Shown in pieces: positions 1 to 46,607 of a stretch of 64,000 bases of DNA. The notes below the pieces were generated by a model, which did no database searches, was not told the DNA's origin, and saw only the letters and a program-made list of their open reading frames with translations. Positions within the stretch are counted from its first letter, which is position 1; each line of letters starts with the position of its first letter. Where the stretch lies: assembly GCA_004570425.1 (NCBI GenBank), contig SPQJ01000007.1, positions 1 through 64,000 on the forward strand, written 5' to 3'. This stretch comes from Bacillus sp. AZ43. Lineage in GTDB: Bacteria > Actinomycetota > Actinomycetes > Mycobacteriales > Geodermatophilaceae. A program made the translations under genes and the position numbers.

Positions 1-154
1 CCGTGGTCCATGCCCTCGTGACCACTCCCGTGGTCCATGCCCTCGTGACCACTCCCGTGGTCCATGCCCTCGTGACCACTCCCGTGGTCCATGCCCTCGT
101 GACCACTCCCGTGGTCCATGCCCTCGTGACCACTCCCGTGGTCCATGCCCTCGT
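1..154. repeat. 27-bp tandem repeat, about 5.7 copies, inside a coding region
   Basis: Five identical 27-bp units beginning CCGTGGTCCATGCCCTCG fill bases 1-135, followed by a partial sixth to about 154. The array may continue outside the window. The unit length is a multiple of three, so copy-number changes keep the minus-strand frame. Each unit adds SGHEGMDHG. The lack of sequence divergence suggests recent expansion or gene conversion. Confidence 0.95.
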
Positions 155-530
155 CGTCCTCGTCCTTGCCGAGCAACAAGAGCGGCGACGGCCGGTCGTG
201 TCCCTTCATTCCTGATCCGGCCCGCCGGATCAGGACAGCTCGGCCCTGGTCCAGAGCCACGGCGACGTCGCTGGGGCGCTGCACGTCCCCTCGGTGCCGC
301 GGCTCGGGAACCTGGCTCCAGAGCACGTCGACGGCTTCTGCGAGCTCCGGTCCGGGTTGCCCCAGGACGACCAGAAGGTCAGTGTCCGCGGGTGAGAGGG
401 CGCGCGGCCAGCCGCGCCGGTCCAGCTCGGCCTCGACGGACCACCGGAGCGTGGTCGCGGCCGGGGCATCGACGAGGAGTACCCGCGGCTTCGCCAGCGC
501 CCAGTTCCGCAGTCGGGCGATCAGGTCCAT
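1..530 (-). CDS. NuoB-like protein without iron-sulfur cysteines, with Met/His repeat tail (3' end outside window)
   Basis: The frame opens at ATG 530 and stays open to the left edge, so the C-terminus is missing. The start overlaps the nuoA stop (ATGGACCTGA), which implies translational coupling. Residues 1 to about 100 look like a NuoB fold: a 'TDLLVVLG' strand followed by a 'VPEPRH' segment resembling the 'MPEP' region of the NuoB/20-kDa complex I subunit. None of the cysteines that bind cluster N2 is present. After about residue 120 comes an acidic DEDDE stretch and then repeats of the unit SGHEGMDHG, encoded by the 27-bp tandem repeat. Inference: a degenerate complex I subunit that gained a metal-binding (Cu or Ni) tail. 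The NuoB likeness was judged by eye. An alternative is an unrelated nuo-operon protein. Confidence 0.6.
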   Translation of the reverse strand, partial: MDLIARLRNWALAKPRVLLVDAPAATTLRWSVEAELDRRGWPRALSPADTDLLVVLGQPGPELAEAVDVLWSQVPEPRHRGDVQRPSDVAVALDQGRAVLIRRAGSGMKGHDRPSPLLLLGKDEDDEGMDHGSGHEGMDHGSGHEGMDHGSGHEGMDHGSGHEGMDHGSGHEGMDH

Positions 531-1022: not shown

Positions 1023-1400
1023 TCAGTCGTCGTCCGGCGCCGCCTCCGAGAGAACGACCAACTGGCGTAGGCAGTGCTCCCGCAGTGGCTCGGGGAAACC
1101 CTCGGCCAGGCGGTAGTACACGACGCGCCCCTGCTTCCGGTTGGTCACCAGTCCCGCCGTGCGCAACAACCGGAGCGCGTACCCCACGGCGTCCTCGTTG
1201 GCCTCCAGGGCCAGCGCGAGATCGCCGACGCAGAGCTCTTCGACCATGTCGAGGGCGAACAGCACGCGGGCCCGGGTCGGGTCTGCCATCAAGCTCAACA
1301 CGCTGGTCAGCTGGGTAGCCTCCTCCCGGCTGGGCAGCCGAGCTCGGGCGTGTGCAACGCGTTCCGGGTCGACCGGATGGGCGTGGCCAGGTTCGGACAT
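1023..1400 (-). CDS. ArsR/SmtB-family metal-sensing repressor
   Basis: A 125-residue winged-helix repressor. The core 'LMADPTRARVLFALDMVEELCVGDLALAL' region, followed by 'AVGYALRLLRTAGLV' and 'GRVVYYRLA', is typical of ArsR/SmtB. The usual ELCVCDL motif is ELCVGDL here, which leaves Cys57. A second cysteine, Cys110, lies in 'REHC' near the C-terminus. That pattern recalls CmtR-type Cd/Pb sensors more than classical ArsR. His/Asp residues near the N-terminus could add ligands. ATG 1400 has GGAGGT nine bases upstream; longer frames run into the divergent gene. It is divergent from the cysteine-rich copper-storage gene at 1518, its likely target. The metal is not deducible from sequence. Confidence 0.85.
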   Translation of the reverse strand: MSEPGHAHPVDPERVAHARARLPSREEATQLTSVLSLMADPTRARVLFALDMVEELCVGDLALALEANEDAVGYALRLLRTAGLVTNRKQGRVVYYRLAEGFPEPLREHCLRQLVVLSEAAPDDD

Positions 1401-1426: not shown

Positions 1427-1438
1427 ACCCGTACGGGT
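1427..1438. promoter_or_regulatory. Candidate ArsR-type operator (12-bp palindrome)
   Basis: ACCCGTACGGGT is a perfect palindrome located between the divergent repressor and storage-protein genes, where an ArsR operator would be expected. A related CCGTACG pair occurs at 6167-6182. Confidence 0.5.
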
Positions 1439-1517: not shown

Positions 1518-1925
1518 ATGACCGTGGCAGCCCAGATGCTCGATACCTACCCCAAGGACCTCGGCGGGGTGGACAAGCAGAAGCTGCTGGCCTGCATCGA
1601 GGCCTGCTTCGAGTGCGCCCAGGCGTGCACCGCCTGTGCCGACGCCTGCCTCAGCGAGGACATGGTCGCCGAGCTGACGAAGTGCATCCGCACCAACATC
1701 GACTGCGCCGACATCTGTGACACCACCGGCCGCGTGCTCTCGCGGCACACCGGCTACGACGCCAACCTGACCCGCGCGGTCCTCGAGGCCTGCGCTGCCG
1801 CCTGCAAGGCATGCGGCGACGAGTGCGAGAGCCACGCCTCAATGCACGAGCACTGCCGAATCTGCGCCGAGGCCTGCCGGCGCTGCGAGCAGGCCTGCCG
1901 CGACCTCATCACCTCACTGGGCTGA
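1518..1925 (+). CDS. Four-helix-bundle copper storage protein (DUF326/Csp type)
   Basis: A 135-residue protein with 18 cysteines spaced in CxxxC and CxxC patterns along predicted helices: residues 26-44 ('CIEACFECAQACTAC'), 56-67, 92-103 and 113-127. This is the signature of the DUF326/Csp proteins, which line a four-helix bundle with Cys thiols and store many Cu(I) ions. There is no signal peptide, so it should be cytosolic (Csp3-like). ATG 1518 has GAGGAG upstream. The divergent ArsR repressor probably controls it. The IS982 element begins about 90 bases past its stop. A decayed second copy lies at 7008-7095. Confidence 0.9.
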   Translation: MTVAAQMLDTYPKDLGGVDKQKLLACIEACFECAQACTACADACLSEDMVAELTKCIRTNIDCADICDTTGRVLSRHTGYDANLTRAVLEACAAACKACGDECESHASMHEHCRICAEACRRCEQACRDLITSLG

Positions 1926-2163
1926 CGGAGACTGGACGGCAGGTCGGCCCCGGAGGCGCCAAGGCCAGGAGCGGCCTGGACGACGCCCCGGGGCCGAACC
2001 AACGCTCCAGCGGCGCACTAGATGACCTATTCCAAGGGGTCGTGCGCCTCGGCGACGTTCCCGCGGAACGTCGGCGGTAGTGGTTCGGCGTGCCTTGATC
2101 AGGTGAGAGGCGAGGGTGCCCAGGCTCGGCGTTGGAACCCAACGTCGAACCGCGGAGGTCCTC

Positions 2164-2926
2164 GTGGACGCCGATCTGGACACCCTCGCGACCGCACTCT
2201 ACGTACGAGTCGATGACCTGTTGAAGGAGCTCCCGCAGCGGGCTCCGGCCCGGCCGAAGGTCGGGATCGCACCGAGAATCACCGACGCAGAGCTGATCAC
2301 GTTGGCGGTGATGCAGGCACTGGCCGGTCGCCACAGCGAGGCCCGCTGGCTGCGCTACGCCTGCTCCCACCTGCGGCATCTGTTCCCCTACCTGCCCGGC
2401 CAACCCGGGTACAACAAGCGGCTACGACACCTCGCCGACACCATCGCCTGGCTGATCACGGTGCTGGCCCGCGACACCAGCTTGTTCACCGACAACGTGT
2501 GGGTCGTTGATTCCACGCCGGTGGAGTGCGCCCGCTCCCGGGAAACGGTCCGCCGCTCGGATCTGGCCGGCTGGGCCGAGTACGGCTACTGCGCCAGCCA
2601 CTCCCGGTTGTTCTGGGGCCTGCGGCTACACCTGCTGTGCACCCTGCACGGGCTGCCGGTCGGCTTCGCCCTCACCGGCGCCAAGGCCGACGAGCGCACG
2701 GTGCTGCTCGACATCCTCGACACCGACCCCACCCTGACCGCCGACCGCCGCCAGCAGGTCGTGATCGCGGACAAGAACTACTACGGCCGCGAGTTCGAAG
2801 GCATCCTCACCGACGCGGGGTTGAACCTGCTGCGCCCGGCCCGCAAGGGCGAACCCGAACGCCCGGGGACGGGCTTCTTCAAGCCATTACGCCAGGTCAT
2901 CGAGTCGATCAACGACACCTTCAAAG
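2164..2926 (+). pseudogene. IS982-family transposase, 5' part (disrupted)
   Basis: The first part of a DDE transposase, with 'ITDAELITLAVMQAL', 'WVVDSTPVECARSR', 'GYCASHSRLFWGLRLH' and 'VIADKNYYG', diagnostic of actinobacterial IS982 transposases. GTG 2164 has GGAGG six bases upstream. The frame is broken after 'SINDTFK' by an IS3 element with an AAG target duplication. The missing end is at 5576-5727. The insertion should abolish transposition unless a complete copy elsewhere acts in trans. Confidence 0.9.
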
Positions 2927-2977
2927 TGAACCGTCCCCGGTCTCGTAGCGGGTCTGAATCCACGGGAGAGTGGAATC

Positions 2978-3274
2978 GTGCCCGCACCGAGGAAGTACCC
3001 CGACGAGCTGCGTGAGCGGTCGATCCGCTTCGCCTGCGACCTCGTCGACGGTCCAGAGAAACTGAGTGTCAACGCCGCCTGCCGGCGGGTGGGTGAGCAG
3101 CTGGGCATCCAGCCGGACACTCTGCGGAACTGGGTCAAGCAGGCCCGTGTCGACGCCGGCGCCGAGCCGGGGCTGACCACCGATGAGCGGGCCCGGCTGC
3201 GTGAGCTGGAGCGGGAGGTCCGCGAGCTGCGCCGCGCGAACGCGATCCTGAAAACGGCCTCGGCTTTCTTCGCG
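2978..3274 (+). pseudogene. IS3 OrfA (HTH protein), interrupted near its end
   Basis: The helix-turn-helix and leucine-zipper subunit of IS3 transposase: 'YPDELRERSIRFACDLV', 'GIQPDTLRNWVKQA', then the coiled 'LRELEREVRELRRANAILK'. GTG 2978 has GGGAGAG upstream. The IS110 insertion after 'ASAFFA' replaces the last codons. Without the insertion the frame would continue 'ELDRPSPR' and stop at 4605-4607, next to the orfB frame. That is the normal place for the programmed frameshift in this family. Confidence 0.88.
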
Positions 3275-4576
3275 TCAATGCCAGCATGAGAGCTGCCCGG
3301 CGGGGTTCGCTCCTTTCTTCGCTGCCCCGGCTGCGGCCGGTGGCTTGTCCAGCGATGTGCGGCCCCGCCGGGTTCCTCCGGTGGCGCGTGGCTTGATAGG
3401 AGCCTGCTCTCCGCTCGATTGAGGCGTGCCCGCGCCGCCGGTGCCCGACCGGTTCACCAACCCGCGGAGGAGCACCACCTTGATCGTCATCGGAGCCGAC
3501 TCGCACAAGCGCACGCACACCGTCGTCGCGCTGGACGCGGTCGGCCGCAAGCTGGCCGAGAAGACCACGCCGGCCACCAGCGAGGGTCACCTGGCGCTGG
3601 TCACCTGGGCGGCGCAGTGGCCCGAGGTCCGGTTCGCCCTCGAGGACTGCCGGCACCTGACCCGCCGACTCGAGCGCGACCTGCTCACCGCCGGCCAGCA
3701 GGTGGTGCGGGTGCCGACCCGGCTGATGGCCGGCGCCCGCCGAGGAGGACGGCATCCGGGCAAGTCCGACCCGATCGACGCCGAGGCCGTCGCGCTGGCC
3801 GCGCTGCGTCATGATGACCTGCCCATCGCCGAGCTCGACGGCCCCACCCGGGAGGTGAAGCTGCTGGTCGACTACCGCCGCGACCTGGTCGCCCAGCGCA
3901 CCCGGGTGCAGAACCAGCTGCGCTGGCACCTGCACGAACTCGACCCGGAGCTACACGTGCCCTCCAGAGGGCTGCGCCGCTACTGCGTCATCGACGACCT
4001 GCTCGACCGGCTCGCCGACCGCCCTGGCGTGGTCGCCCGGCTGACCCGCGCGCTGCTTGAACGCTGCCGCGAGCTGACCGGCCAGATCAACGCTCTGGAG
4101 GCCGAACTGAAGAGCCTGGTCGGCCGCCTGGCTCCGTCACTGCTGGCACTGCCGGGCTGCGGCGTGCTCGGCGCGGCGATGATCCTCGGCGAGACCGCCG
4201 GCGTACACCGGTTCCGCAACAAGGACGCCTACGCCCGGTTCACCGGCACCGCCCCCATCCCGGTCTGGTCAGGCAGCAACAGGCGCGATGGCAAGGTCCG
4301 GCTCAACCGCGGCGGCAACCGCACCATCAACACCGCCCTACACATGATCGCCGTGACCCAGATCCGCGGCGTCGGCCCCGGCAAGGACTACGTCGCCCGC
4401 CTCCATGCCTCCGGCAAGACCTCCACAGAGGCCGTCCGACTGCTTCGCCGACGGCTGTCCGACGCGGTCTTTGCCGCCCTCCGCGCAGACGCGCACTGCG
4501 CTCAAGCATCGCCGGCAGCGGCCCCGGCAGCGGCCCCGACCCCCGGCCTCCCGGCTGTGGCTTGACATAGGAGCAT
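3275..4576 (+). mobile_element. IS110-family element
   Basis: About 1.3 kb inserted in IS3 orfA. CGCG occurs at both junctions (3271-3274 and 4577-4580), so the exact cut is ambiguous. There are no inverted repeats, as expected for IS110, which recombines through a DEDD nuclease rather than a DDE enzyme. The non-coding stretch of roughly 200 bases before the transposase could hold the bridge RNA that many IS110 elements encode. I did not fold it. Confidence 0.85.
3480..4565 (+). CDS. IS110-family transposase
   Basis: A DEDD-type transposase of about 361 residues. The N-terminal RuvC-like half begins 'IGADSHKRTHTVVALD' and has 'KSDPIDAEAVA' and 'VDYRRDLVAQRTRVQNQLR'. The C-terminal transposase_20 domain has 'LLALPGCGVLGAAMILGE', 'DAYARFTG', 'NRGGNRTINTALH' and the serine-type 'SGKTSTEA'. 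TTG 3480 has GGAGG about ten bases upstream. The same frame also reaches GTG 3426, which has no clear ribosome site. The gene appears intact, making this the youngest and possibly active layer of the nested insertions. Confidence 0.88.
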   Translation: MIVIGADSHKRTHTVVALDAVGRKLAEKTTPATSEGHLALVTWAAQWPEVRFALEDCRHLTRRLERDLLTAGQQVVRVPTRLMAGARRGGRHPGKSDPIDAEAVALAALRHDDLPIAELDGPTREVKLLVDYRRDLVAQRTRVQNQLRWHLHELDPELHVPSRGLRRYCVIDDLLDRLADRPGVVARLTRALLERCRELTGQINALEAELKSLVGRLAPSLLALPGCGVLGAAMILGETAGVHRFRNKDAYARFTGTAPIPVWSGSNRRDGKVRLNRGGNRTINTALHMIAVTQIRGVGPGKDYVARLHASGKTSTEAVRLLRRRLSDAVFAALRADAHCAQASPAAAPAAAPTPGLPAVA

Positions 4577-4603
4577 CGCGGAGCTCGACCGCCCCTCGCC
4601 GCG

Positions 4604-5542
4604 CTGATCGACTACATCGACACCTACCGGGAGCAGTTCGGGGTCGAGCCGATCTGCCGGGTCCTGCGCGAGCACGGCCTGCAGATCGCCCCGAGCACCT
4701 ACCGGGCGGCTAAGCGGCGCCCGCCCTCGGCCCGCGCGCAGCGGGACACCGTGGTCCTGGAGCGCATCCGCACGGTGCACAGCGACCGCAAGATCGGCCG
4801 CGGGGTCTACGGCGTGCGCAAGGTGCACGCCCAGCTGCGCCGTGAGGGGGGCGTGGCCGGCCACCCGGTCTCCCGCCGCCAGGTCGAGCGGCTGATGCGC
4901 ACCGAGGGACTGCAAGGCGCCCGCCGCGGCCGGGCGTTCAAGACCACGCGGGCGGACTCGTCAGCGGCCCGACCGCCGGACCTGGTGCAGCGCGACTTCA
5001 CCGCACCGGCGCCCAACCGGCTGTGGCTGGTGGACTTCACCTACGTGCCGACCTGGTCGGGCATGGCGTTCACCGCCTTCGTCCACGACGCCTTCAGCCG
5101 GCGGATCGTCGGCTGGCGCACCGCCTCCTCCATGCCCACCGAACTGCCGCTGGAAGCTCTGGAGATGGCGCTGTGGACCCGGGAACGCGCAGGTGAGGAG
5201 ATCGCTGGCGTCATTCAACACAGCGATGCGGGCAGTCAGTACACCGCAATTCGATACCAGAACCGGCTCGCCGACGCAGGTGCGGTCGCCTCCATCGGCA
5301 GCGTCGGCGACTCCTACGACAACGCCCAGGCCGAGAGCCTGATCGGTCTGTACAAGACCGAGTGCACCCGCCGCGACGGGCCCTGGCGCAGCGTCGAGGA
5401 CCTCGAGCTGGCCACCCTGTCCTGGGTGCACTGGTTCAACAGCGCCCGCCTGCACAGCGCCCTCGACCACAGGCCCCCGGTCGAGGTCGAGCAGGAGTAC
5501 TACCGTTCCATCACCGCCGAGCAGCAGCCGCTGCCGGCATAA
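4604..5542 (+). CDS. IS3-family transposase OrfB
   Basis: The catalytic subunit of an IS3 transposase, translated by frameshift from orfA. In order: 'REQFGVEPICRVLREHG' (HTH_21), 'KIGRGVYGVRKVHAQLRREG', then the rve integrase core with DDE residues in 'LVDFTYVPTW', 'HSDAGSQYT' and 'DNAQAESLIGLYKTE'. The frame has no good start codon of its own near 4604, as expected for a frameshift product. The GTG at 4751 would remove the N-terminal domain. It is separated from its orfA by IS110, so the normal OrfAB fusion cannot form here. Confidence 0.88.
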   Translation: MIDYIDTYREQFGVEPICRVLREHGLQIAPSTYRAAKRRPPSARAQRDTVVLERIRTVHSDRKIGRGVYGVRKVHAQLRREGGVAGHPVSRRQVERLMRTEGLQGARRGRAFKTTRADSSAARPPDLVQRDFTAPAPNRLWLVDFTYVPTWSGMAFTAFVHDAFSRRIVGWRTASSMPTELPLEALEMALWTRERAGEEIAGVIQHSDAGSQYTAIRYQNRLADAGAVASIGSVGDSYDNAQAESLIGLYKTECTRRDGPWRSVEDLELATLSWVHWFNSARLHSALDHRPPVEVEQEYYRSITAEQQPLPA

Positions 5543-9603: not shown

Positions 9604-10254
9604 TCAGCCGCCCAACTCGCTCAGCAGCGTCTGCATCTCCTCGATCTCAGCGGTCTGGGACTCGACGATCTCCCGAGCCATGTCGATGGCGTCCGGATTG
9701 GCACCGTCGGCGATCTCCGTCTCGGCCATGTCCACGGCGCCCCGATGGTGCGGAATCATCATCTCGAGGAACATCCGGTCGAACTCAGCGCCAGAGGCGG
9801 AGTCCAGCGCTGTCATGTCCGCCTCGGACATGCCTTCCATGTCCATGCCTTCCATGTCCATGCCTTCCATGTCCATGCCGCCGGAGCCGTGGTCCATGCC
9901 GCCCATGTCATCCTCGGGCAGCGGCTCGCCCCACTCCTCGAGCCAGCCGGTCATCGTCTCGATCTCCGGCCCCTGCGCGGCCTCGATGCGATCCGCCAGG
10001 TCGATCACCCGCGGGTCCGAGGCCCGGCCGTCGGCGAGCTGAGCCATGCGGAGAGCGCCCTCGTGGTGCGGGAGCATCCCCTGGACGAACGTCACGTCAG
10101 CGTCGTTGTGGACGGCGGCGTCACTGGCGGAACTACCGGTGGTGGGGCTGCTCTCGGCATTGGAGCCTTCGCTGCCGTTCGAGCAGCCGCTCAGGACGAT
10201 GGCGCCTGCGATGAGGCCACCGGCAAAGCGGACAAGTCGTGTCGTGCGAGCCAT
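9604..10254 (-). CDS. DUF305 lipoprotein with Met-rich repeat insert
   Basis: 216 residues with signal peptide and lipobox 'VLSGC'. Two half-domains carry 'MLPHHEGAL' (about residue 60) and 'MIPHHRGAV' (about residue 165), the paired HH motifs of full-length DUF305. Between them lies a loop of 'MGGMDHGSGGMDMEGMD' type made of three copies of a 15-bp repeat (MEGMD) near 9830-9880. Met/His/Asp loops of this kind bind Cu(I)/Ag(I) in copper oxidases and CusF-type chaperones. ATG 10254 follows AGGAG. The gene is monocistronic as far as visible. Confidence 0.88.
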   Translation of the reverse strand: MARTTRLVRFAGGLIAGAIVLSGCSNGSEGSNAESSPTTGSSASDAAVHNDADVTFVQGMLPHHEGALRMAQLADGRASDPRVIDLADRIEAAQGPEIETMTGWLEEWGEPLPEDDMGGMDHGSGGMDMEGMDMEGMDMEGMSEADMTALDSASGAEFDRMFLEMMIPHHRGAVDMAETEIADGANPDAIDMAREIVESQTAEIEEMQTLLSELGG

Positions 10255-10340
10255 CTGAGTTCTCCTGCGGTTGTAGGTCCATAGGCGTGCGCGTATGACC
10301 CGACCGCGCCGAGGGCTGAGTCGGGGTCAAGGCATTCGGC

Positions 10341-13425: not shown

Positions 13426-13937
13426 CGGCGCCCGACCAGGGTCTCCGTCTGGAGACCGACACCCGGCCCGACTCGGCCAACATAGAGCCGTGACCACTTC
13501 GTGACAACGCCTCCTAGGCGTGTCGGATAGTTGAGCCGCACCGTCGAGACTGGGACCGGCACCACCCACCTCGCTGACACCACCCGCCTCAGCGAGACCG
13601 TCCGCCTCGTCGCCATCCGGAGTCGATCCGGCTGAGAAGTACTCCTCTGCTGGAGAAGGCGTTCACGCAATGCATGGACAGGACTCTCGCCGCCACCGTG
13701 TCGCTATGCGGGACGCCCCTGCCGTCGCTTCCGACCATCCTTCAGCCTAGGACTGACACATCCCCGAGTTGGAGACGTGGCCAGCACTTGTGGAGGACGC
13801 TCCATCATCGGTTCGGGAACCAATGACGTAGGCTCTCGGTGCTCGTCGAAACCGCCGAGCACCGGGCCGATCGACCCTCGTCAAGACGTGTCCGGCCTGG
13901 AGACTGACGCCAGGGTCGTCGACACAAGGGAGCCGTG
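13426..13937. other. 512 bases without a gene
   Basis: Must contain the promoter of the riboswitch transcript (minus) and of blaI (plus). I find no convincing ORF and no TACTA dyad before blaI. Confidence 0.4.
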
Positions 13938-14300
13938 ATGCCCCGTCTGGGCAAGCTAGAGGCGGCCATCATGGACATCCTCTGGTCCTCCGACGGCTCA
14001 CTGACCGTGCGCGAGGTCCTCGAGAAGCTGCCTCCCCAGCGCAACCTGGCTTACACGACCGTCATGACCGTGCTCAGCAACCTCCATCGCAAGGCAATGG
14101 TGGCGCGGGAGCCCGCTGGCCGGGCTTACAGCTACCGGCCGACGTCTACCCGTCAAGGAGCTGCGGCCGCATCGCTTCGAGAGATCCTGAACGCGTCGGA
14201 CGACCCGCAGTCGGTGCTGATGCACTTCGCCGAGACCGCCTCAGAGGAGGAATCCACGGTCTTGCGGGACGGCCTGGCGCGCCGCGCTCCCCAGTCATGA
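13938..14300 (+). CDS. blaI: BlaI/MecI/CopY-family repressor
   Basis: 120 residues. The winged helix 'GKLEAAIMDILWSSDGSLTVREVLEKLP', 'LAYTTVMTVLSNLHRKAMVAREPAGRAYSYRP' is the standard BlaI/MecI DNA-binding domain, followed by a dimerisation helix region. Family members bind TACTAC-type dyads and are removed by cleavage triggered by a BlaR/MecR protease. ATG 13938 has AGGGAG upstream; a GTG immediately before it is also possible. The stop overlaps the start of the M56 protease gene (ATGA). No beta-lactamase is nearby. Nine or more matching dyads elsewhere in the window suggest a wide local regulon. Confidence 0.92.
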   Translation: MPRLGKLEAAIMDILWSSDGSLTVREVLEKLPPQRNLAYTTVMTVLSNLHRKAMVAREPAGRAYSYRPTSTRQGAAAASLREILNASDDPQSVLMHFAETASEEESTVLRDGLARRAPQS

Positions 14301-15235
14301 CCGGGATGCTGACACTCCTGGTGGGCAGCACGATGGTGGGCTTGCACGGTCACCGGCCCCTGCAGTGGCTCGCGGACCGGCGAATCGATCCCACGATCCT
14401 GCTGACCGGATGGATCTTGTCCACCGTCGGATTGGTCGTCTCAGCAGTCGCCACCATCGGTTCGTTCGCGTTGCCGGCCGACAACCACCCAGCGACCGGC
14501 ATCTTCGGCCTCGCGGGCGGCTGCTGGACCGCACTCTCCTCTGGCCATCTCCCCGGCTGGAGAGAAGGCGCGGCCGCCCTCAGCGTCGTGGGCGCAGCAG
14601 GCATCGTGTTACGCATTGGTTGGGCAACAGCGGGATGGCGCCGGCGGCGACAGGATCACGCTCCGCACGTGGCGCAGCTTCGCCTTCTCGCCGCCAGCAA
14701 GCCGTCGACGGAGCCGCTGTGGGTGCGGGACAACCGCCCGTTGGCCATGTCTATCGGCGGCCGCCCAGGCGTGATCCTCATGAGCGATGCACTACGTGAT
14801 CATCTGACTGCCGAGGCAATGGCAGCCACCCTCGAACATGAGCGGGCACATCTGCGCGGTCGCCACCACGTGCTCGTCGCGATCGCCGACATTCTGGCCG
14901 CCGCCCTACCCGCGGTTCCGCTGCTTCGATTCGCCCCGTCCGCGATCAGGGACCTCATCGAGCTCGCTGCCGATGCACAGGCCGCCCGCCGCTGTGGGCC
15001 GGCCGCGGTCCGCGAAGCCTTGTCCCAGCTCACCGGACAGCCGACGTCACCTGTCGGCCTGGCCATGGCCAGCCGCCTCACCCAAACGCGCCTGACGCGA
15101 TTGACGACCAGCAGCTTTCCCGCCAATCGCGGTGGCCGGTTTGCCGGAGCTGCGGCAGTAGCAGCAGCGGCTCTGGCGCTGCCTGCGGCCGCCGGATGGC
15201 TGGCGCTGAACGTGGTCGGCTGCGTCGTCGCTTGA
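14297..15235 (+). CDS. BlaR1/MecR1-like M56 membrane metalloprotease
   Basis: 312 residues with four or five predicted helices: 1-20, 33-58 and 68-115 broadly, and one at the end. The zinc-protease motif 'LEHERAHLRGRHH' (HExxH) is in the middle, with a downstream Glu in 'DLIELAADAQAARR'. This is the M56 family, whose members cleave or trigger cleavage of BlaI. It lacks the C-terminal penicillin-binding sensor domain of true BlaR1, so its signal is unlikely to be a covalently bound beta-lactam. Translationally coupled to blaI. Confidence 0.88.
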   Translation: MTGMLTLLVGSTMVGLHGHRPLQWLADRRIDPTILLTGWILSTVGLVVSAVATIGSFALPADNHPATGIFGLAGGCWTALSSGHLPGWREGAAALSVVGAAGIVLRIGWATAGWRRRRQDHAPHVAQLRLLAASKPSTEPLWVRDNRPLAMSIGGRPGVILMSDALRDHLTAEAMAATLEHERAHLRGRHHVLVAIADILAAALPAVPLLRFAPSAIRDLIELAADAQAARRCGPAAVREALSQLTGQPTSPVGLAMASRLTQTRLTRLTTSSFPANRGGRFAGAAAVAAAALALPAAAGWLALNVVGCVVA

Positions 15236-29650: not shown

Positions 29651-29899
29651 CCTGCACCCACGGGGAGTGCACGACTCCAGTGACCGATCCCAACCCGAAC
29701 CATAGGTACGAAGGGCACTCATCGGGTGCAGGAGGGAAGTGGGTTCGACGGAGTCGCCGAAGGACAACGGGCCAGCCCGTCGTTCCTGAAGGTTCGGTGT
29801 AGTTCCCGGCTCCACGGTGTCTCGCGGCGCGCCACGTGGTTGCTTGGGGTGCCCGCTCGAGAGCGGGCCGAACCCACGCGCCTGAGTGAAGGAACCGTG

Positions 29900-31429
29900 A
29901 TGCGCACCAAGAAGTCCCTGATCGTCGTCTCCGTGGCGGCCGTGTTGGCGATCGTGACCGGAGTCGTCGTGTGGCTGCTGCCCGGCGACGAGCCGTCTGC
30001 CGCCCGGCTCGTCGACCCGGACTCCGACGCGGTCACCCAGACGGAGCAGGCACGCACGGTGGACGGGGCCCGCACGATCGAGATGGCGCTGACCGCGGCA
30101 CCGGCAACCGTCGAGGTCGGCGGCCGGACCGTGGACACCTGGGCCTTCAACGGCGCCGTCCCGGCACCGACGATTCGGGCTACCGCCGGCGACGTGCTGC
30201 GCGCCCGGGTGGTGAACGACCTGCCCGAGGAACTGACCATCCACTGGCACGGCATCGCGCTGCGCAACGACATGGACGGCGTGCCCGACCTGACACAGGA
30301 CTCGATCGCGCCCGGTGAGGAGTTCGTGTACGAGTTCACCCTGCCGGACCCCGGCACCTACTTCTACCACCCGCACACCGGCACCCAACTCGACCGTGGC
30401 CTCTACGGGGCGCTGATCGTCGACGAGCGCGACGCCGCCGCTCCGAGCGCAGACATTCCGCTCCTGCTCGACGACTGGATCGACGGCACGGGCCAGACCC
30501 CGGACGAGGTCCTGGAGGGGCTGACCTCCATGGAAGGCATGGACGACGGCTCGATGCCGGGCATGGACCACGGCTCCATGGGCGGGATGGACATGTCGGA
30601 GCCCGATCCGTCGGGCGCGACGAGCCCGCTCGGCACCGACATCTCCGACGTCAGCTACCCGCTCTACGTGATCAACGGGCGCGCGGCCGAGGCGCCGGAG
30701 GTCCACCCGGTGTCCGCCGGCGAGCAGGTTCGGCTGCGGCTGATCAACGCCGCGTCGAGCGTGCCCTTCCGGGTGGCCTTCGGCGGCGGCGAGATGACTG
30801 TCGTCGCCACCGACGGCTTCCCGGTCGAGCCGGTGGCCACCGATACCGTGCTCATCGGCATGGGCGAGCGATACGACGTCCTGGTCACCGTTCCCGGCGA
30901 CGGCGCCTTCCCGCTGGTCGCCGCCGTGGAAGGCGGGAGCGACCAGGCCATGACCGTCCTGCAGGCCGGCGCCGGGGCACTGCCGGCCGCCGACGTCCGG
31001 CCGGTCCAGCTCGACGGCCGACTGCTCACCTACGACGACCTGCAGGCGACCGCCGATGTCGCGCTGCCCTCGGAAGAGGTCGACCGGAATTACGAGATGA
31101 CACTGACCGGCAACATGATGAGCTACGACTGGGGCATCGATGCACCACAGGAGGACGGGGTCACCATGCCCGTCCGGGAGGGTGAGCGGGTGCGACTGAC
31201 GTTCGTCAACGACACCAGCATGTGGCACCCGATGCACCTGCACGGGCACACGTTCCAGCTGGTGTCCGACGAGGGAATCGGCCCACGCAAGGACACCGTC
31301 AACGTCGCACCCGGCGATAGCGTGACCGTGGAGTTCGAAGCGGACAACCCGGGCCAGTGGCTCCTGCACTGCCACAACACCTACCACGCCGAGGCAGGCA
31401 TGCAGACCACGGTGTCCTACCTGCAGTAG
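29900..31429 (+). CDS. Exported multicopper oxidase (CueO/CopA-like) with Met-rich loop
   Basis: 509 residues. An N-terminal anchor or signal (6-30) is followed by three cupredoxin domains. Copper ligands are visible in order: 'IHWHGIAL', 'YFYHPHTG', 'WHPMHLHGHTF', and 'LHCHNTYHAEAGM' (type 1 Met, Cys, His; type 2/3 His). Residues about 215-235 form a loop of 'MEGMDDGSMPGMDHGSMGGM' type, similar to the Met-rich Cu(I) loop of CueO. Probably oxidises Cu(I) outside the membrane. ATG 29900 has AAGGA six bases upstream. The two-component system follows 165 bases downstream. Confidence 0.93.
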   Translation: MRTKKSLIVVSVAAVLAIVTGVVVWLLPGDEPSAARLVDPDSDAVTQTEQARTVDGARTIEMALTAAPATVEVGGRTVDTWAFNGAVPAPTIRATAGDVLRARVVNDLPEELTIHWHGIALRNDMDGVPDLTQDSIAPGEEFVYEFTLPDPGTYFYHPHTGTQLDRGLYGALIVDERDAAAPSADIPLLLDDWIDGTGQTPDEVLEGLTSMEGMDDGSMPGMDHGSMGGMDMSEPDPSGATSPLGTDISDVSYPLYVINGRAAEAPEVHPVSAGEQVRLRLINAASSVPFRVAFGGGEMTVVATDGFPVEPVATDTVLIGMGERYDVLVTVPGDGAFPLVAAVEGGSDQAMTVLQAGAGALPAADVRPVQLDGRLLTYDDLQATADVALPSEEVDRNYEMTLTGNMMSYDWGIDAPQEDGVTMPVREGERVRLTFVNDTSMWHPMHLHGHTFQLVSDEGIGPRKDTVNVAPGDSVTVEFEADNPGQWLLHCHNTYHAEAGMQTTVSYLQ

Positions 31430-40198: not shown

Positions 40199-42685
40199 TC
40201 AGCGGGTGCCGGCCGGCACCGGGGTCGGCTCGGTACCCGCCGTGTCGGCGGTGCGGGTCTCCGGAGGCGGCGCAGGCAGCTTGAGCCGCTTGAGCATCAG
40301 GGCGTTGACCGCGACGATCAGCGACGACCCGGACATGGAGAGGGCGGCGATCTCCGGGCGCAGCACGAGGCCGAACGCCGGCTGGAAGACCCCGGCGGCG
40401 ATCGGCAGGGCGATCACGTTGTAGCCGATAGCCCAGGCCAGGTTCTGCCGTTCCTTGCGCACGGTTCCCTTGCCGATCCGGATGGCGATCGGCACGTCGA
40501 GGGGGTCCGAGCGCATCAGCACGACATCGGCGGTCTCGATCGCCACATCGGTGCCCGCGCCGATCGCGATCCCGAGGTCGGCCTGGGCCAGCGCGGGGGC
40601 GTCGTTGACGCCGTCACCGACCATCGCCACCTTCTTGCCGGCGCGCTGCAGCTCGGCGATCTTGTCCGCCTTGTCGCCGGGCAACACCTCGGCGATCACC
40701 GTGTCGATGCCCAGCTGGCCGGCGATCCGCCGCGCCGTGGCCTCGTTGTCCCCGCTGAGCATGACCACCTCGATGCCCAGCTCGTGCAGCGAGGACACCG
40801 CGGCCGCAGACGTCTCCCGGGCGGCATCGGCCAGCCCGATCACCGCCACGCCGCGCCCGTCGACCGCCACCAGCACCGCGGTGCGACCGGACGACGCCAG
40901 CTCGTCCCGCCGCGCGAGCAGGGACCCCAGGTCGACCCCCTCGTCGACCATGAGCTTGCGGTTGCCGACCAGCACCCGGCGGCCGGACACCTGCGCATCC
41001 GCGCCGTGACCGGGCACATTGCGGAAATCCGCGGCCGCCAAAGCAGGCGCGCCGTGATCCTCGGCGTACCGGGCGATCGCGGCCGCCAGCGGGTGCTCGG
41101 ACTCCCGCTCCACCGCAGCCACCAGCGCCAACAGCTCGGTCTCGTCCATACCCTCGATGATCACGTCGGTGACCTCCGGCTCCCCCTTGGTCAGGGTGCC
41201 GGTCTTGTCCATCACCACCGTGTCGATTCCCGCCGACGCCTCCAGGGCGGTCGCGTTCTTGAACAACACGCCCCGCTGCGCACCCAGCCCGGTGCCCACC
41301 ATGATCGCCGTCGGCGTGGCCAAGCCCAGCGCGTCCGGACAGGTGATCACCACCACGGTGATGGCGAACAGAATGGCGGTGGACACCTCCGCCCCGGCCA
41401 GCAGCCACCACACCAGGAAGGTGCCGGTGCCGCCGATCAGCGCGACGAACACCAACCAGAACGCGGCCCGGTCAGCCAGCCGCTGCCCCGGCGCCTTGGA
41501 GTTCTGCGCCTCCTGGACCATCTTCACGATCTGCGCCAGCGCGGTGTCCGCACCGACCCTGGTCGTCCGGACCCGCAGCGTGCCGGTCGTGTTGATGGAG
41601 GCCCCGATCACCTCGGCCCCGGGGGCCTTGGACACCGGCAGGCTCTCGCCGGTCACCATCGACTCGTCGACCTCGGAGATCCCGTCCTCCACGACGCCGT
41701 CCACCGGGATCTTCGATCCCGGCCGGACCAGCATCAGGTCCCCGACCTGTACCTCAGCCGTCGGGATCTCCAGTTCCTGACCGTCGCGCAGCACCACCGC
41801 CTTCGGCGGCGACAGCTCCAGCAAGGTCCGGACGGCGTCGTTCGCCCCGCCACGGGCGCGCATCTCGAACCAGTGCCCCAGCAGCACGAAGGACGCGAGC
41901 ACCGTGGCAGCCTCGTAGAACACCTCGCCGCCGCCGGTGAACGTGACGAAGACGCTGTACAGCCAGCCGGCGCCGATCGCCACCGCGACCAGCACCATCA
42001 TGTCCAGAGTGCGGTTCCGCAACGCCCGGTAGGCGCCGTCGAAGAAGATCCAGGACGAGTAGAAGACCACCGGCAGCGACAGGATCAGCGAGAAGACGTC
42101 GTCCCGCAGGCCGAACGGAGCCGCGACGGTGAAACCCAGCACGTCACGGCCGATCGGCGACCACAGCAAGATCGGGATCGACAGCAGCGCGGCGACCAGG
42201 AACCGGTTACGCATGTCCCTGACCATGTCGTCCATCGACATGCCGTGACCGCCGCCATGGCCCATCACATCCTGCGCCGAGCGACTCGAAGGAGGCTCGT
42301 GGCCGCCGTGTGCCCCCTCATGGCCTGCGGGGGCTGCAGGGGCGCCGTGAGCGGTGTGGGTTGCCGCTGTTCCGGGCACGGCGTGGACGTGCGCGCTGCC
42401 GTGACCCGGATGACCCTCATCGGAGGGCTCGCTCATCGGATCACAGATGTGGTCGGGCACCGAGCGCCCGTCGCAGTGATAGCCGCACTCGCGCACCCAG
42501 TCCGTGAGTTGAGCGACGTTCGTCCGGTCCGGGTCATAAGTCACCGTGGCCGTCTGCGACACCGGGTTCATGTCCACCTCGAGAACCCCCGGTTGGCGGG
42601 ACAGCCCGGCCTCGACCACGGCCTTGGACGACCCGCGGTACACCCCCAGGGCCTCGATCACCGCAGTTGCCGACGTCGTGCTCAC
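40199..42685 (-). CDS. P1B-type metal ATPase with CPD membrane motif and His-rich N-terminus
   Basis: 828 residues from GTG 42685 (GGAGGGTGAT upstream). The N-terminal HMA-like domain lacks CxxC ('[13 protein letters not shown]'). Next is a His-rich segment ('[15 protein letters not shown]', '[11 protein letters not shown]', '[14 protein letters not shown]'). The ATPase core has 'VTGES', the transmembrane metal motif '[14 protein letters not shown]', phosphorylation site '[10 protein letters not shown]', '[13 protein letters not shown]' and '[12 protein letters not shown]'. Copper pumps normally have CPC or CPH; CPD is uncommon. His-rich N-terminus resembles CopB-type exporters. Metal not certain; copper or silver is most likely. 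A TACTA dyad is upstream at 42846. Confidence 0.9.
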
Positions 42686-42845
42686 ATCACCCTCCGAACG
42701 CTCATCAACGGATCGAGCCTGTGGTCGAACACCTACCGGGGGGCAAAGCCCACCCAACCCCGTGACATCCCCGAGCCGCGCCAACCTGGCCCGGCCCGGT
42801 TGCACGTTCGACCGTGTCGCGGTGGACCAGCCCAACAGCCGTTTC

Positions 42846-42862
42846 TACTACCTAGCCTAGGG
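42846..42862. promoter_or_regulatory. BlaI-type operator candidate (imperfect)
   Basis: TACTACCTAGCCTAGGG: perfect left arm, right arm TAGGG. About 160 bases before the CPD ATPase start, in a 308-base region holding no recognised gene. Confidence 0.45.
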
Positions 42863-42993
42863 GGCGTCCTGTGGCGTGACAGCCCGCGTGTAGCTAGCGC
42901 AAGGTCTGGCATCCGACAGCAACACTGACGAGAGCGGCTCCGGCACTCCGACCGCTCGCCGAGGACGGACCCGGCTGCCTACCAGTCCCGCGT

Positions 42994-45339
42994 TCATCCC
43001 GCGTCGACCAGCTGCCGGCCACCGAGGCTCCGGTCCGCACCGGATCCACCGTCCCCCTGCGCCGAGGCCATGGCCTTGAACCGGCGTAGGCGCAGGCTGT
43101 TGGAGACGACGAAGACCGAGGAGAAGGCCATGGCCGCCCCGGCGATGAGCGGGTTTAGCAGACCGGCTGCGGCCAGCGGCAGGGCGGCGACGTTGTAGGC
43201 GAACGCCCAGAACAGGTTGCCCTTGATGGTGCTCAGCGTCGTGCGCGAGAGCCGGATCGCATCGGCGGCGACCCGGAGGTCCCCGCGTACCAGGGTCAGG
43301 TCACTGGCCTCGATCGCGACGTCGGTGCCGGTGCCCATGGCCAGCCCCAGGTCGGCCTGGGCCAGGGCGGCGGCGTCGTTGACCCCGTCGCCCACCATTG
43401 CAACAACTTTGCCGTCGGCCTGCAGCCGCTTGACCACGTCGACCTTGTCGGCCGGCAGCACCTCGGCGATCACCTCGGCGATGCCGACCTGGGCTCCGAC
43501 CGAGCGGGCGACGGTCTCGTTGTCTCCGGTCAGCAGCACCGGCGAGAGCCCGAGGTCGCGCAGTTGCCGGATCGCCTCGGCGGAGGTCTCTTTGATGGCG
43601 TCGGCCACCACGAGCACGCCGCGGGCGGCGCCGTCCCAGCCCACGGCCACAGCGGTTTTCCCGTCGGCCTCGGCCGCAGCCTTGGCTCGCTCGAGGTCCG
43701 CGGGCAGCTGCTGAGACCACTCGGCCAGCAGCCGGGTACGACCGACCAGCACGGCGTGGCCGTCGACGACCCCCTGCACGCCGAGCCCCTCCAGGTTGGT
43801 GAAGCCCTCCACGGGCGGCAGCGTGCCGACCCGCTCGACGGCACCCCTGGCGATCGCCTGAGCGATCGGGTGCTCGGAGGCGTCCTCCAGGGCGCCGGCC
43901 AGGCGCAGCACCTGCAGTTCGTCCTCGCCGGGGGCCGGGACGACGTCGAGCAGGGTCATCCGGCCGGTGGTCACGGTCCCGGTCTTGTCCAGCACGACGG
44001 TGTCGACCTTGCGGGTGGACTCCAGTACCTCGGGGCCCTTGATCAGGATCCCGAGCTGGGCGCCGCGTCCGGTACCGACAATGAGCGCGGTCGGCGTGGC
44101 GAGGCCGAGGGCGCAGGGGCAGGCGATGATCAGCACGGCGACTGTCGCGGTGAACGCCACCGCGACCCCGGCTCCGCTGCCGATCCAGAAGCCGAGCGTG
44201 GCCACCGCCAGGGCGATCACGATGGGCACGAAGATCCCGGAGACCCGGTCGGCCAGGCGCTGAACCTCGGCCTTGCCGTTCTGCGCCTCCTCGACGAGCT
44301 TCGCCATCTGGGCCAGCTGGGTGTCCGAGCCGATCCGGGTGGCCCGCACGACGATGCGCCCACCGGCGTTCACGGTGGCACCCACGACGCTGTCCTCGGG
44401 CCCGACCTCCACGGGCACGGATTCCCCGGTCAGCATCGACGCGTCGACCGCGGAGGAGCCCTCGGTGATCACGCCATCGGTGGCGATCTTCTCCCCCGGG
44501 CGGACGACGAACAGGTCACCGACGGCCAGTTGCTCGATCGGGATCCGCTCCTCGCGCCCGGCGCGCAGGACGGCGACCTCCTTGGCGCCGAGCTCCAGCA
44601 GCGCACGCAGCGCCGCCCCGGCCTGCCGCTTGGAGCGGGCCTCGAAGTAGCGACCGGCGAGGATGGCCGTGGTCACCCCGGCGGCGACCTCCAGGTAGAT
44701 GTTCGCCATGCCGTCCGCCCGGCCGATGGTCAGCTCGAACGGGTGCTTCATGCCCGGCACACCCGCGGTGCCGAGGAAGAGGGCGTAGAGCGACCAGGCG
44801 AAGGCCGCCAGCGTGCCCATCGAGACGAGTGTATCCATCGTCGAGGCGCCGTGCCGCAGGTTGGTCCAGGCCGCCTTGTGGAACGGCCACGCGCCCCAGA
44901 CGACGACCGGCGCGGCCAGCGTGAGCGACAGCCACTGCCAGTAGGTGAATTGCAGGGCGGGGATCATCGCCATCGCGATCACCGGGACGGTGAGCGCCGT
45001 GGAGATCAACAGACGCTGCCGCAGCGGCCGCACCGGGTCGTGCTCATCGGCCCCGTCGTCCGCGGCGGCGTTCCCGGCTCGCGGCGGCTCGGGCAGCCGC
45101 GCGCTGTAGCCCGCCTTCTCCACCGCCGCCACGAGGTCCTCCGGGCTGACGCCGTCGGCGTAGCTCACCCGGGCCTTCTCGGTGGCGTAGTTCACCGTCG
45201 CGGTGACCCCGTCGAGCTTGTTCAGCCGCTTCTCGATCCGCATGGCGCACGACGCACAGGTCATACCGCCGATCGTGAGCTCGAGCTGCTCATCACCGGT
45301 TGGCGGCTGCGGTGTCGTGCTGTTCGTCGCGGAGCTCAT
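42994..45339 (-). CDS. copA: Cu(I)-exporting P1B-1 ATPase CopA
   Basis: 781 residues: N-terminal HMA domain with '[16 protein letters not shown]', eight-helix core with 'LTGESVPV', ion motif '[16 protein letters not shown]', '[12 protein letters not shown]', '[12 protein letters not shown]', 'LTGDNE' and '[12 protein letters not shown]', and C-terminal '[39 protein letters not shown]' region typical of CopA. It pumps Cu(I) from cytosol outward. ATG 45339 has AGGAGG upstream. Downstream partner of the small Met/His protein, CopZ and CsoR, all on the minus strand. Confidence 0.95.
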
Positions 45340-45429
45340 CGGTCCTCCTGGCAGTGGTTTGCTTCATTGCGCGAACGGCGGCCCCGGGGTGCGACGCCAG
45401 CCCGGCGCTGTGCACCCCGGGGCGGACGG

Positions 45430-45609
45430 TCAGCCGCCGGCGTCGGCGTCCATGTCCATGCCGCCGTGGCCGACCTCTGTCCCCGCCGGCTGCTGATGCT
45501 GGTCACCGGCCGGCCCGACCGGTCCGACCGCGCTGCCGACCCCGAGGGCAGCGAGGAAGACCACGGCGAGGCCCGCCAGATAGGCGCCGACCCTCGTGGA
45601 AGTGCTCAC
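45430..45609 (-). CDS. Small membrane-anchored Met/His-tailed protein
   Basis: 59 residues: 'MSTSTRVGAYLAGLAVVFLAALGVGSAVGPVG' (one helix), then 'DQHQQPAGTEVGHGGMDMDADAGG'. Similar short proteins accompany copA in actinobacteria. The exposed His/Met/Asp tail could bind copper at the outer face. GTG 45609 follows a purine-rich GGGGGAGGGGG stretch. Lies between copZ and copA. Confidence 0.75.
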   Translation of the reverse strand: MSTSTRVGAYLAGLAVVFLAALGVGSAVGPVGPAGDQHQQPAGTEVGHGGMDMDADAGG

Positions 45610-45673
45610 CCCGAACCCCCTCCCCCTCTCGTATCCCGACGCCGACCGCGGGCGGTGTCCGGCGCCCGAAGGC

Positions 45674-45961
45674 TCAGCGGCAGCCGCAGCCGCACCCGGA
45701 CCCCTGGCCCTCCGCCGTCACCACTTGCAGTTCAGGCGCGGGCACGTCGTTGGCCGGGGTGGCCACTTCGTATCCGGCCTCCTCCACGGCGGCGCGCACC
45801 GCGGCGTCATCGACGTCGGTCGCGCTCACCACGGTGAGGCCGCCGCTGGCCAGATCGACCTGGACGTCACTGACGCCGGGAACCTGGCTGACCTCCTCGG
45901 TCACCGAGTTGACGCAGTGCCCGCAGGTCATGCCGACCACGGTGTAGGTGGCGGTGCTCAT
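45674..45961 (-). CDS. copZ: CopZ-type copper chaperone with Cys-rich tail
   Basis: 95 residues: HMA domain (1-68) with metal site 'GMTCGHCVNSV', then a linker and the ending 'GSGCGCGCR' with three extra cysteines. CopZ carries Cu(I) to CopA. ATG 45961 follows GAGAGGACG. The tail is not part of the standard fold and may add a second Cu(I) site. Confidence 0.92.
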   Translation of the reverse strand: MSTATYTVVGMTCGHCVNSVTEEVSQVPGVSDVQVDLASGGLTVVSATDVDDAAVRAAVEEAGYEVATPANDVPAPELQVVTAEGQGSGCGCGCR

Positions 45962-46053
45962 CTTCTGACGTCCTCTCACTGTTGGCTGTACTGCTTCCGG
46001 TGTTGCCCGGCTGATGGCGGGGCAGTGCCCGCCGCCGTGAAATCGCTGGTGGG

Positions 46054-46344
46054 TCAGGAACGCACCAGACGAGCGATCGCCTCGGATGCCTCGCGAACCT
46101 TCTCGTCGGCTCCCCTGCCGCCGGCCTTCGCGGCCGCTACCACGCAGTGGCTCATGTGCTCTTCAAGCAGGCCGAGCGCGACCGACTGCAGGGCCTTCGT
46201 CATGGCCGAGACCTGGGTGAGGATGTCGATGCAGTACTTCTCGTCCTCGACCATCCGCTGCAGACCGCGGGCCTGGCCCTCGATCCGCCGCAGCCGCTTG
46301 AGGTAGTCGTCCTTGCGGTGGATGTACCCGTGTCCGGCCTGCAT
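46054..46344 (-). CDS. csoR: CsoR-family copper-sensing repressor
   Basis: 96 residues: 'KDDYLKRLRRIEGQARGLQRMVEDEKYCIDILTQVSAM' with the first Cys, then 'LEEHMSHCVV' with the His and second Cys of the Cys-His-Cys Cu(I) site. Cu(I) binding releases it from the operator. ATG 46344 has GGAGGGAGAGG upstream. Candidate operator at 46385-46396. Likely controls csoR-copZ-copA. Confidence 0.93.
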   Translation of the reverse strand: MQAGHGYIHRKDDYLKRLRRIEGQARGLQRMVEDEKYCIDILTQVSAMTKALQSVALGLLEEHMSHCVVAAAKAGGRGADEKVREASEAIARLVRS

Positions 46345-46384
46345 GCCCTCTCCCTCCGCTCCCACAGTGGCGAACTGTATACCC

Positions 46385-46396
46385 CCTACCGGTAGG
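46385..46396. promoter_or_regulatory. CsoR operator candidate
   Basis: CCTACCGGTAGG, a perfect palindrome inside TATACCCCCTACCGGTAGGT, about 40 bases before csoR. It matches the C/G-tract type of CsoR sites. Confidence 0.7.
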
Positions 46397-46607
46397 TGGC
46401 AAGGGCCCCTGTCCGGCCTCATCCCGCGCGGTCACCGACCGACGTGACCAAGCCGCCGTGACAAGCTCCTCGTGCCCGAGATGCAGTCGGCCAGGCGCTT
46501 CAAGCAGTCATCGCTCTGCAGGTGGAGGGCAGCCGCTCGCTGCAGGAACTCAGCAGGAGGCTGGAGTCGACGGCGCCGCGGTGAACGACCTCGGGTGACG
46601 ACGTGCT

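Follow-up and report, generated by a model that had tools for sequence, protein, structure and literature searches.

A putative copper-transporting derivative of complex I in at least two bacterial phyla

The gene order nuoA-X-nuoHJKLMN is already known as the “partial NDH-1” or “marine adaptation genes” operon (PMC3314556, PMC6676996), and its second gene, here called X, has been described as encoding a hypothetical protein with no homologs in UniProt or PDB (PMC6676996). The open-licence papers found contained no link of the partial NDH-1 operon to copper or to NuoB/NuoD, and a search of the same kind of literature for copper in combination with nuo or NuoJ returned nothing relevant; an earlier report elsewhere is possible. 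The window, which is the whole stretch of 64,000 nucleotides analyzed here (positions 1 to 64,000 of contig SPQJ01000007.1 from Bacillus sp. AZ43, placed by GTDB in the Geodermatophilaceae), starts within an operon that shares gene content and order with the partial NDH-1 operons of Salinispora, Kocuria, and Streptomyces and belongs to the same operon family, Salinispora being also among the relatives compared here (L099). Three features are located at the left edge of the window:

1..154, minus strand: repeat array, each unit coding for SGHEGMDHG
1..530, minus strand: gene X, 5' part, with a NuoB-like domain (about residues 1 to 95) and the start of a Met/His linker; it continues on contig C42
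521..862, minus strand: nuoA of the partial operon (Oxidored_q4, E = 1.6e-27), ATG at 862 by comparison

The array is composed of 5.7 copies of a 27-bp unit that are 100% identical, and a chance match was excluded. The open reading frame from 3 to 530 on the minus strand reads (SGHEGMDHG)n in frame, contains no cysteine residue in its 176 amino acids, and overlaps nuoA, with its stop at 521, by 10 bases. The initial annotation had recorded the coupling to nuoA, the identical repeats, the absence of ligands for the N2 cluster from this part of X, and a Met/His array, apparently metal binding and variable in length, and all of this agrees with the present data. It had also described the repeat as a tail of the protein, which was not the case. 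The window begins at the start of contig C72 (SPQJ01000007.1), so that the array is cut by the assembly. The only other site in the genome with the 27-bp unit, allowing up to two mismatches, is on contig C42, which ends at base 42086 in this repeat in the same orientation as in the window and with units that differ from those of the window by one synonymous base per unit. Reading across the left edge, the repeat continues on C42, followed by about 210 further residues in the frame of X and by nuoH, J, K, L, M, and N. Synteny and the repeat thus point to a join of C42 and C72; sister Blastococcus genomes possess the whole X gene uninterrupted (L018, 85% identity). Together, the assembled pieces hold about 12 repeat copies, with both sides ending at contig ends. 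The repeat is an internal linker of X between a NuoB-like and a degenerate NuoD-like domain.

In some relatives this linker is no more than a short stub, in others it reaches about 250 residues, and slippage at the perfect 27-bp units may lead to a fast change in linker length. One member from the window's own genus (L022, 7216-8526) has an acidic DDGDS repeat with almost no His or Met as the linker, and a search for copper genes nearby found none. Either X or the operon was disrupted in Pseudarthrobacter defluvii (plasmid, L030, 13995-16450), Sulfitobacter dubius (L223, 9654-12069), and Streptomyces NBC_00080 (L031), the types of breakage being an IS3 insertion inside X, a frameshifted X, and a nuoA without the remaining nuo genes.

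A Pfam search yielded zero matches with the window part of X and also with the full-length X of a sister genome alone, so the homology of X was deduced from profile searches, from distantly related members, and from structure prediction. The NCBIfam model nuoB_fam matched residues 32 to 79 of the window X (E = 9e-4), with related NuoB models ranking after it, and a profile from a linker-free alignment of 11 X relatives matched NuoB chains in the PDB (E = 1.7e-6). For a member of 361 residues, AlphaFold2 gave a model with a pLDDT of 86.5, a pTM of 0.83, and a low-confidence linker; its first domain matched NuoB chains with a Foldseek probability of 1.0. The profile, the NCBIfam match, and Foldseek agree on a NuoB-derived protein, as initially annotated, but this is true for the N-terminal half only. 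The second half, which had been missed, is NuoD derived: the second domain of the model matched mycobacterial NuoD with a Z score of 14.6 and an rmsd of 2.7 Å over 182 residues. The matches listed in this structure comparison were NuoD or hydrogenase-type relatives and covered mainly the C-domain, so the N-domain was assigned from the Foldseek and sequence matches.

More distant members contain all parts in a single chain. X proteins of the Rubrobacter type and of alphaproteobacteria carry the heavy-metal-binding domain HMBD (PF19335) together with PF00346 (NuoD) and a weak PF01058 (NuoB), the number of HMBD copies varying from one to five and their insertion point in X being shared. The HMBD motif CPMHP...CP.CGM is present in other members but absent from the window part of X and from the full-length sister X. 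None of the N2 cysteines survives in X according to the alignment, whereas the canonical NuoB on contig C12 retains all four; similarly, the canonical NuoD loop GPQHPSTHG (C12) is replaced by a GPVLPGWPTG-type sequence in X, with both histidines lost. X is, judged by alignment and model, a NuoB-NuoD fusion without cluster ligands that would cap a complex I derivative.

The operon comprises the eight genes nuoA-X-nuoHJKLMN, and this gene set was present in 92 genome or plasmid loci wherever the contig was long enough and the operon unbroken. Markers for NuoB, NuoD, NuoF, NuoG, and NuoI were found in none of the 92 loci, with NuoF, NuoG, and NuoI representing the NADH and iron-sulfur subunits; the same markers were detected in a random window holding a full complex I operon (L149). 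The annotated plasmid operons listed no genes for NADH or iron-sulfur subunits, and the mrpA-G gene set was likewise not part of the operon, which contains complex I-type genes only. Intact NuoB and NuoD exist once each in the genome, both encoded by a separate full operon on C12, and no intact NuoB is encoded in the operon of X. In contrast to the initial assumption, the operon of X encodes a separate complex and not the complex I of the cell.

In comparison to actinobacterial complex I, the eight-gene operons form one clade with a support of 1.0. Their hosts span Actinomycetota and Pseudomonadota, with the proteobacterial members found through plasmid searches; several hosts are marine, many are terrestrial or clinical, and plasmid and IS contexts were found around the clusters. 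Two copies per genome were present in Pseudonocardia oceani (L055, L088) and Blastococcus litoris (L019, L021). Plasmids of clinical Mycobacterium avium, M. intracellulare, and M. paragordonae also carry the cluster; on the M. avium plasmid pHP17a (L024, 13669-21811), a heavy-metal P-type ATPase is near, and X is annotated as a DUF4779 protein.

The residues of the membrane arm were compared in MAFFT alignments of about 96 to 100 members, using E. coli numbering. The following were kept in 92 to 100% of the members: E144, K229, H254, H338, K342, and K399 of NuoL; K234, K265, H322, H348, and E407 of NuoM; K158, K217 (94%), K247, and K395 of NuoN; E36 and E72 of NuoK; D79 (or Glu) and E81 of NuoA; and E157 and E228 of NuoH. 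The main exceptions among the channel residues were E144 of NuoM, which is mostly Asp, and E133 of NuoN, which is lost. R46 of NuoH and the loop around positions 209 to 218 (R209, D213, E216, E218) were not conserved.

Compared to the canonical actinobacterial subunits, the Met content is increased in NuoJ (9.6 versus 3.2%), NuoK (8.9 versus 5.0%), and NuoA (5.2 versus 2.5%), and no Met enrichment was visible in NuoH, L, M, or N. Ten positions of NuoJ (M58, M59, E62, M63, M66, M70, M74, M76, M85, and H87) show no variation among all 99 members, where V, Y, A, I, L, V, etc., occur in canonical NuoJ; M59, M63, M66, M70, and M74 are spaced so that they lie on the same side of helix 3. In NuoK, Met is gained at positions 30, 32, 69, and 73 around its two glutamates, and NuoA gains His59, His65, Met82, and Met85. 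Methionine is usually easily replaced, but 18 of 30 Met columns in NuoA, J, and K were at least 98% conserved, compared to 11 of 142 aliphatic columns (p = 1e-9). The NuoJ motif was found in all 99 genome or plasmid loci and in all 11 further plasmid loci, of which ten belong to Pseudomonadota; the 12 canonical complex I operons examined and E. coli lack it. The motif was present both with and without a Met/His-rich linker, and the assumption that this linker is the sole copper feature was rejected for this reason. The Met/His array noticed at the outset does exist but exemplifies a broader pattern, which includes HMBD domains, Met rows in NuoJ, NuoK, and NuoA, and neighboring copper genes. 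Roseivivax, Acuticoccus, and Halomonas have a His-rich stretch at the C terminus of NuoJ and not in X:

L215, 13938-14840: NuoJ with His-rich C terminus
L216, 13938-14648: NuoJ with His-rich C terminus
L214, 13923-14549: NuoJ with His-rich C terminus

The window itself is a copper island. Its nuoA displays the family-specific His and Met residues QQHAVSRYHARW ... FDMEMIFM, and the island contains in addition:

1023..1400, minus strand: ArsR/SmtB-family metal-type regulator upstream of nuoA, by profile matches
1427..1438, no strand: palindrome ACCCGTACGGGT, flanked by the ArsR and Csp1 genes
1518..1925, plus strand: Cys-rich four-helix copper-storage-like protein (DUF326; Csp1-family model below cut-off)
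9604..10326, minus strand: DUF305 protein with DMEGM repeats (open frame limits)
13832..15235, plus strand: BlaI/CopY-type regulator (13908-14300) and M56 peptidase (open frames)
29684..31429, plus strand: multicopper oxidase with a Met/His-rich insert (open frame limits)
40199..46431, minus strand: two CopA-like P-type ATPases, a CopZ-like chaperone, and a CsoR-like repressor (open frame limits)

The palindrome ACCCGTACGGGT is near to the TACCC-N-GGGTA type of operator and may have such a function. In-frame Met/His-type repeats were also observed at 9829-9879 (DMEGM, in the DUF305 protein) and 30536-30592 (GMDHGSM, in the multicopper oxidase), which makes repeat expansion a recurrent feature of the island. 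Several transposase-like open frames at 2116-5542, IS5-, IS110-, and IS3-like by eye, separate the nuo operon from the other genes of the island.

Across the loci, copper genes within about 10 to 14 kb accompanied 34 of 45 clusters with a Met/His-rich linker and 5 of 31 others (p = 4e-7), with most copper markers searched within about 10 kb and the related loci not being phylogenetically independent. Counted by genus, the numbers were 16 of 23 and 3 of 13 (p = 0.014), and 1 of 19 random windows contained copper genes. After correction for phylogeny, 7 versus 1 in 14 contrasts agreed with the link (p = 0.07), so that the connection between linker and copper genes, taken alone, is suggestive. 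The Actinomadura clusters, mostly with short linkers, had core copper markers within 10 kb in 0 of 14 cases and kept the NuoJ motif. Nine of the 11 further plasmid clusters were near genes for CueR, CopA-type ATPases, CopABCD, cupredoxins, or multicopper oxidases, and copper neighbors were not found at the remaining two, in Thioclava and Paracoccus sediminicola. Frequent neighbors in Actinomycetota and Pseudomonadota were CopA, CsoR, CopZ, CueR, and multicopper oxidases. Of 96 loci, 23 had a candidate CsoR-type palindrome upstream of nuoA, compared to a background of 3.4%, and the enrichment stayed strong (17 of 90, p = 8e-9) when six possible ribosome-binding sites were removed. The HMBD domains, the His-rich NuoJ tails, the neighbors of the further plasmid clusters, and these palindromes support the connection to copper independently of the linker statistics.

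The complex probably moves or responds to copper instead of respiring, as far as sequences can indicate. The operon is best read as encoding an electron-dead complex I derivative that would translocate or sense Cu(I) in a proton-coupled manner, and the mechanism of proton-driven Cu(I) export set out below may be given an even chance. A further-reaching version, a Cu(I) transporter with a fused NuoB-NuoD cap, a copper-binding linker, the E-channel of NuoA, NuoJ, and NuoK as a methionine path, and proton-driven export, is proposed tentatively and with somewhat less confidence. Such a complex would transfer no electrons. The cytosolic linker of X would capture Cu(I), perhaps also Ag(I), and pass it to the histidines of NuoA, the Met row in transmembrane helix 3 (TM3) of NuoJ, and the surroundings of Glu36 and Glu72 of NuoK, with the former E-channel being the route of Cu(I). 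By H+/Cu+ antiport beside CopA, a proton flow via NuoL, M, and N and the A/J/K/H module would expel cytosolic Cu(I). Counting against this proposal, CopA exports Cu(I) already, and a second pump needs a reason. Moreover, the Met rows could serve packing or hydration, and a single path formed by the Met residues would go beyond what a model of a monomer can show.

The main rival is a copper-gated ion channel without copper transport, in which the linker binds Cu(I) as a switching ligand, a trigger that replaces quinone reduction and opens an H+ or Na+ flux through the membrane arm. This would protect the proton motive force or the pH under copper stress, with copper being sensed and not carried. 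It shares the evidence from the fusion, the channel, and the neighborhood, and the linker connects those subunit domains that flank the quinone site and N2 in complex I. In addition, mammalian complex I shows a rotation of the cytoplasmic half of the helix that corresponds to NuoJ TM3 (PMC8357420). Gating alone, however, leaves the Met row along this helix and around Glu36 and Glu72 of NuoK unexplained, and we consider it possible but doubtful.

The published interpretation as marine adaptation was made for the identical gene order (PMC3314556, PMC6676996) and would agree with the retained ion-channel residues and the marine origin of several hosts. A respiratory pump as published is impossible without the electron-input module and the iron-sulfur ligands, the copper neighbors, the HMBD domains, and the Met/His rows are left without explanation, and many hosts are terrestrial or clinical, which makes this interpretation improbable. 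The linker could also be a neutral repeat expansion, with the copper genes hitchhiking on mobile elements, in line with the perfect repeats, the variable lengths, and the plasmid and IS contexts. Different repeat types and HMBD domains arising at one shared place and a NuoJ motif that is invariant in two phyla render this even less plausible. A Cu(I):quinone oxidoreductase, in which Cu(I) on the linker donates the electrons that reduce quinone close to NuoH and power proton pumping, would profit from putative copper sites close to the expected N2 position and from the intact channel residues, but is highly improbable with both histidines of the NuoD loop gone and R46, R209, D213, E216, and E218 of NuoH not retained.

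The putative copper-transporting complex I derivative would thus occur in at least two phyla and spread on plasmids. It suggests that a machine for copper handling has gone unrecognized in marine proteobacteria and in actinobacteria of environmental and clinical origin, and provides an alternative to the marine-adaptation reading repeated in several comparative-genomics papers. The coupling mechanism of complex I is debated because electron transfer and pumping are hard to separate. A natural complex with the residues of the pump, without the redox parts, and with another trigger or cargo would be a direct test object for coupling.

With respiratory complex I (NDH-1), the operon shares homologous A, H, J, K, L, M, and N subunits, the folds of NuoB and NuoD within X, and the channel residues. 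Separate B and D genes as well as F, G, and I genes are missing from the operon, which has also lost the N2 cysteines and the quinone-loop residues and has extra Met and His in its NuoJ, NuoK, and NuoA. Mrp-type cation/proton antiporters are alike in the proposed complex I-related ion translocation without electron transfer, but they use a different gene set, and the operon instead retains NuoA, NuoH, and the NuoB/NuoD cap. The energy-converting-hydrogenase-related (Ehr) complexes are complex I relatives that possess a large-subunit homologue without catalytic ligands; they are likened to the operon by description, and we know of no copper link for them. HMBD domains occur in proteins of metal efflux systems, whereas in X they sit between two complex I subunit domains, and the X of the window has Met/His repeats instead. 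Compared to the partial NDH-1 papers, new here are the identity of X as a predicted NuoB-NuoD fusion, its linker that is often Met/His rich or contains one to five heavy-metal-binding domains, the retained proton-channel residues together with Met rows and His residues in NuoJ, NuoK, and NuoA that are absent from canonical complex I, and the frequent location of the clusters beside copper genes in two phyla.
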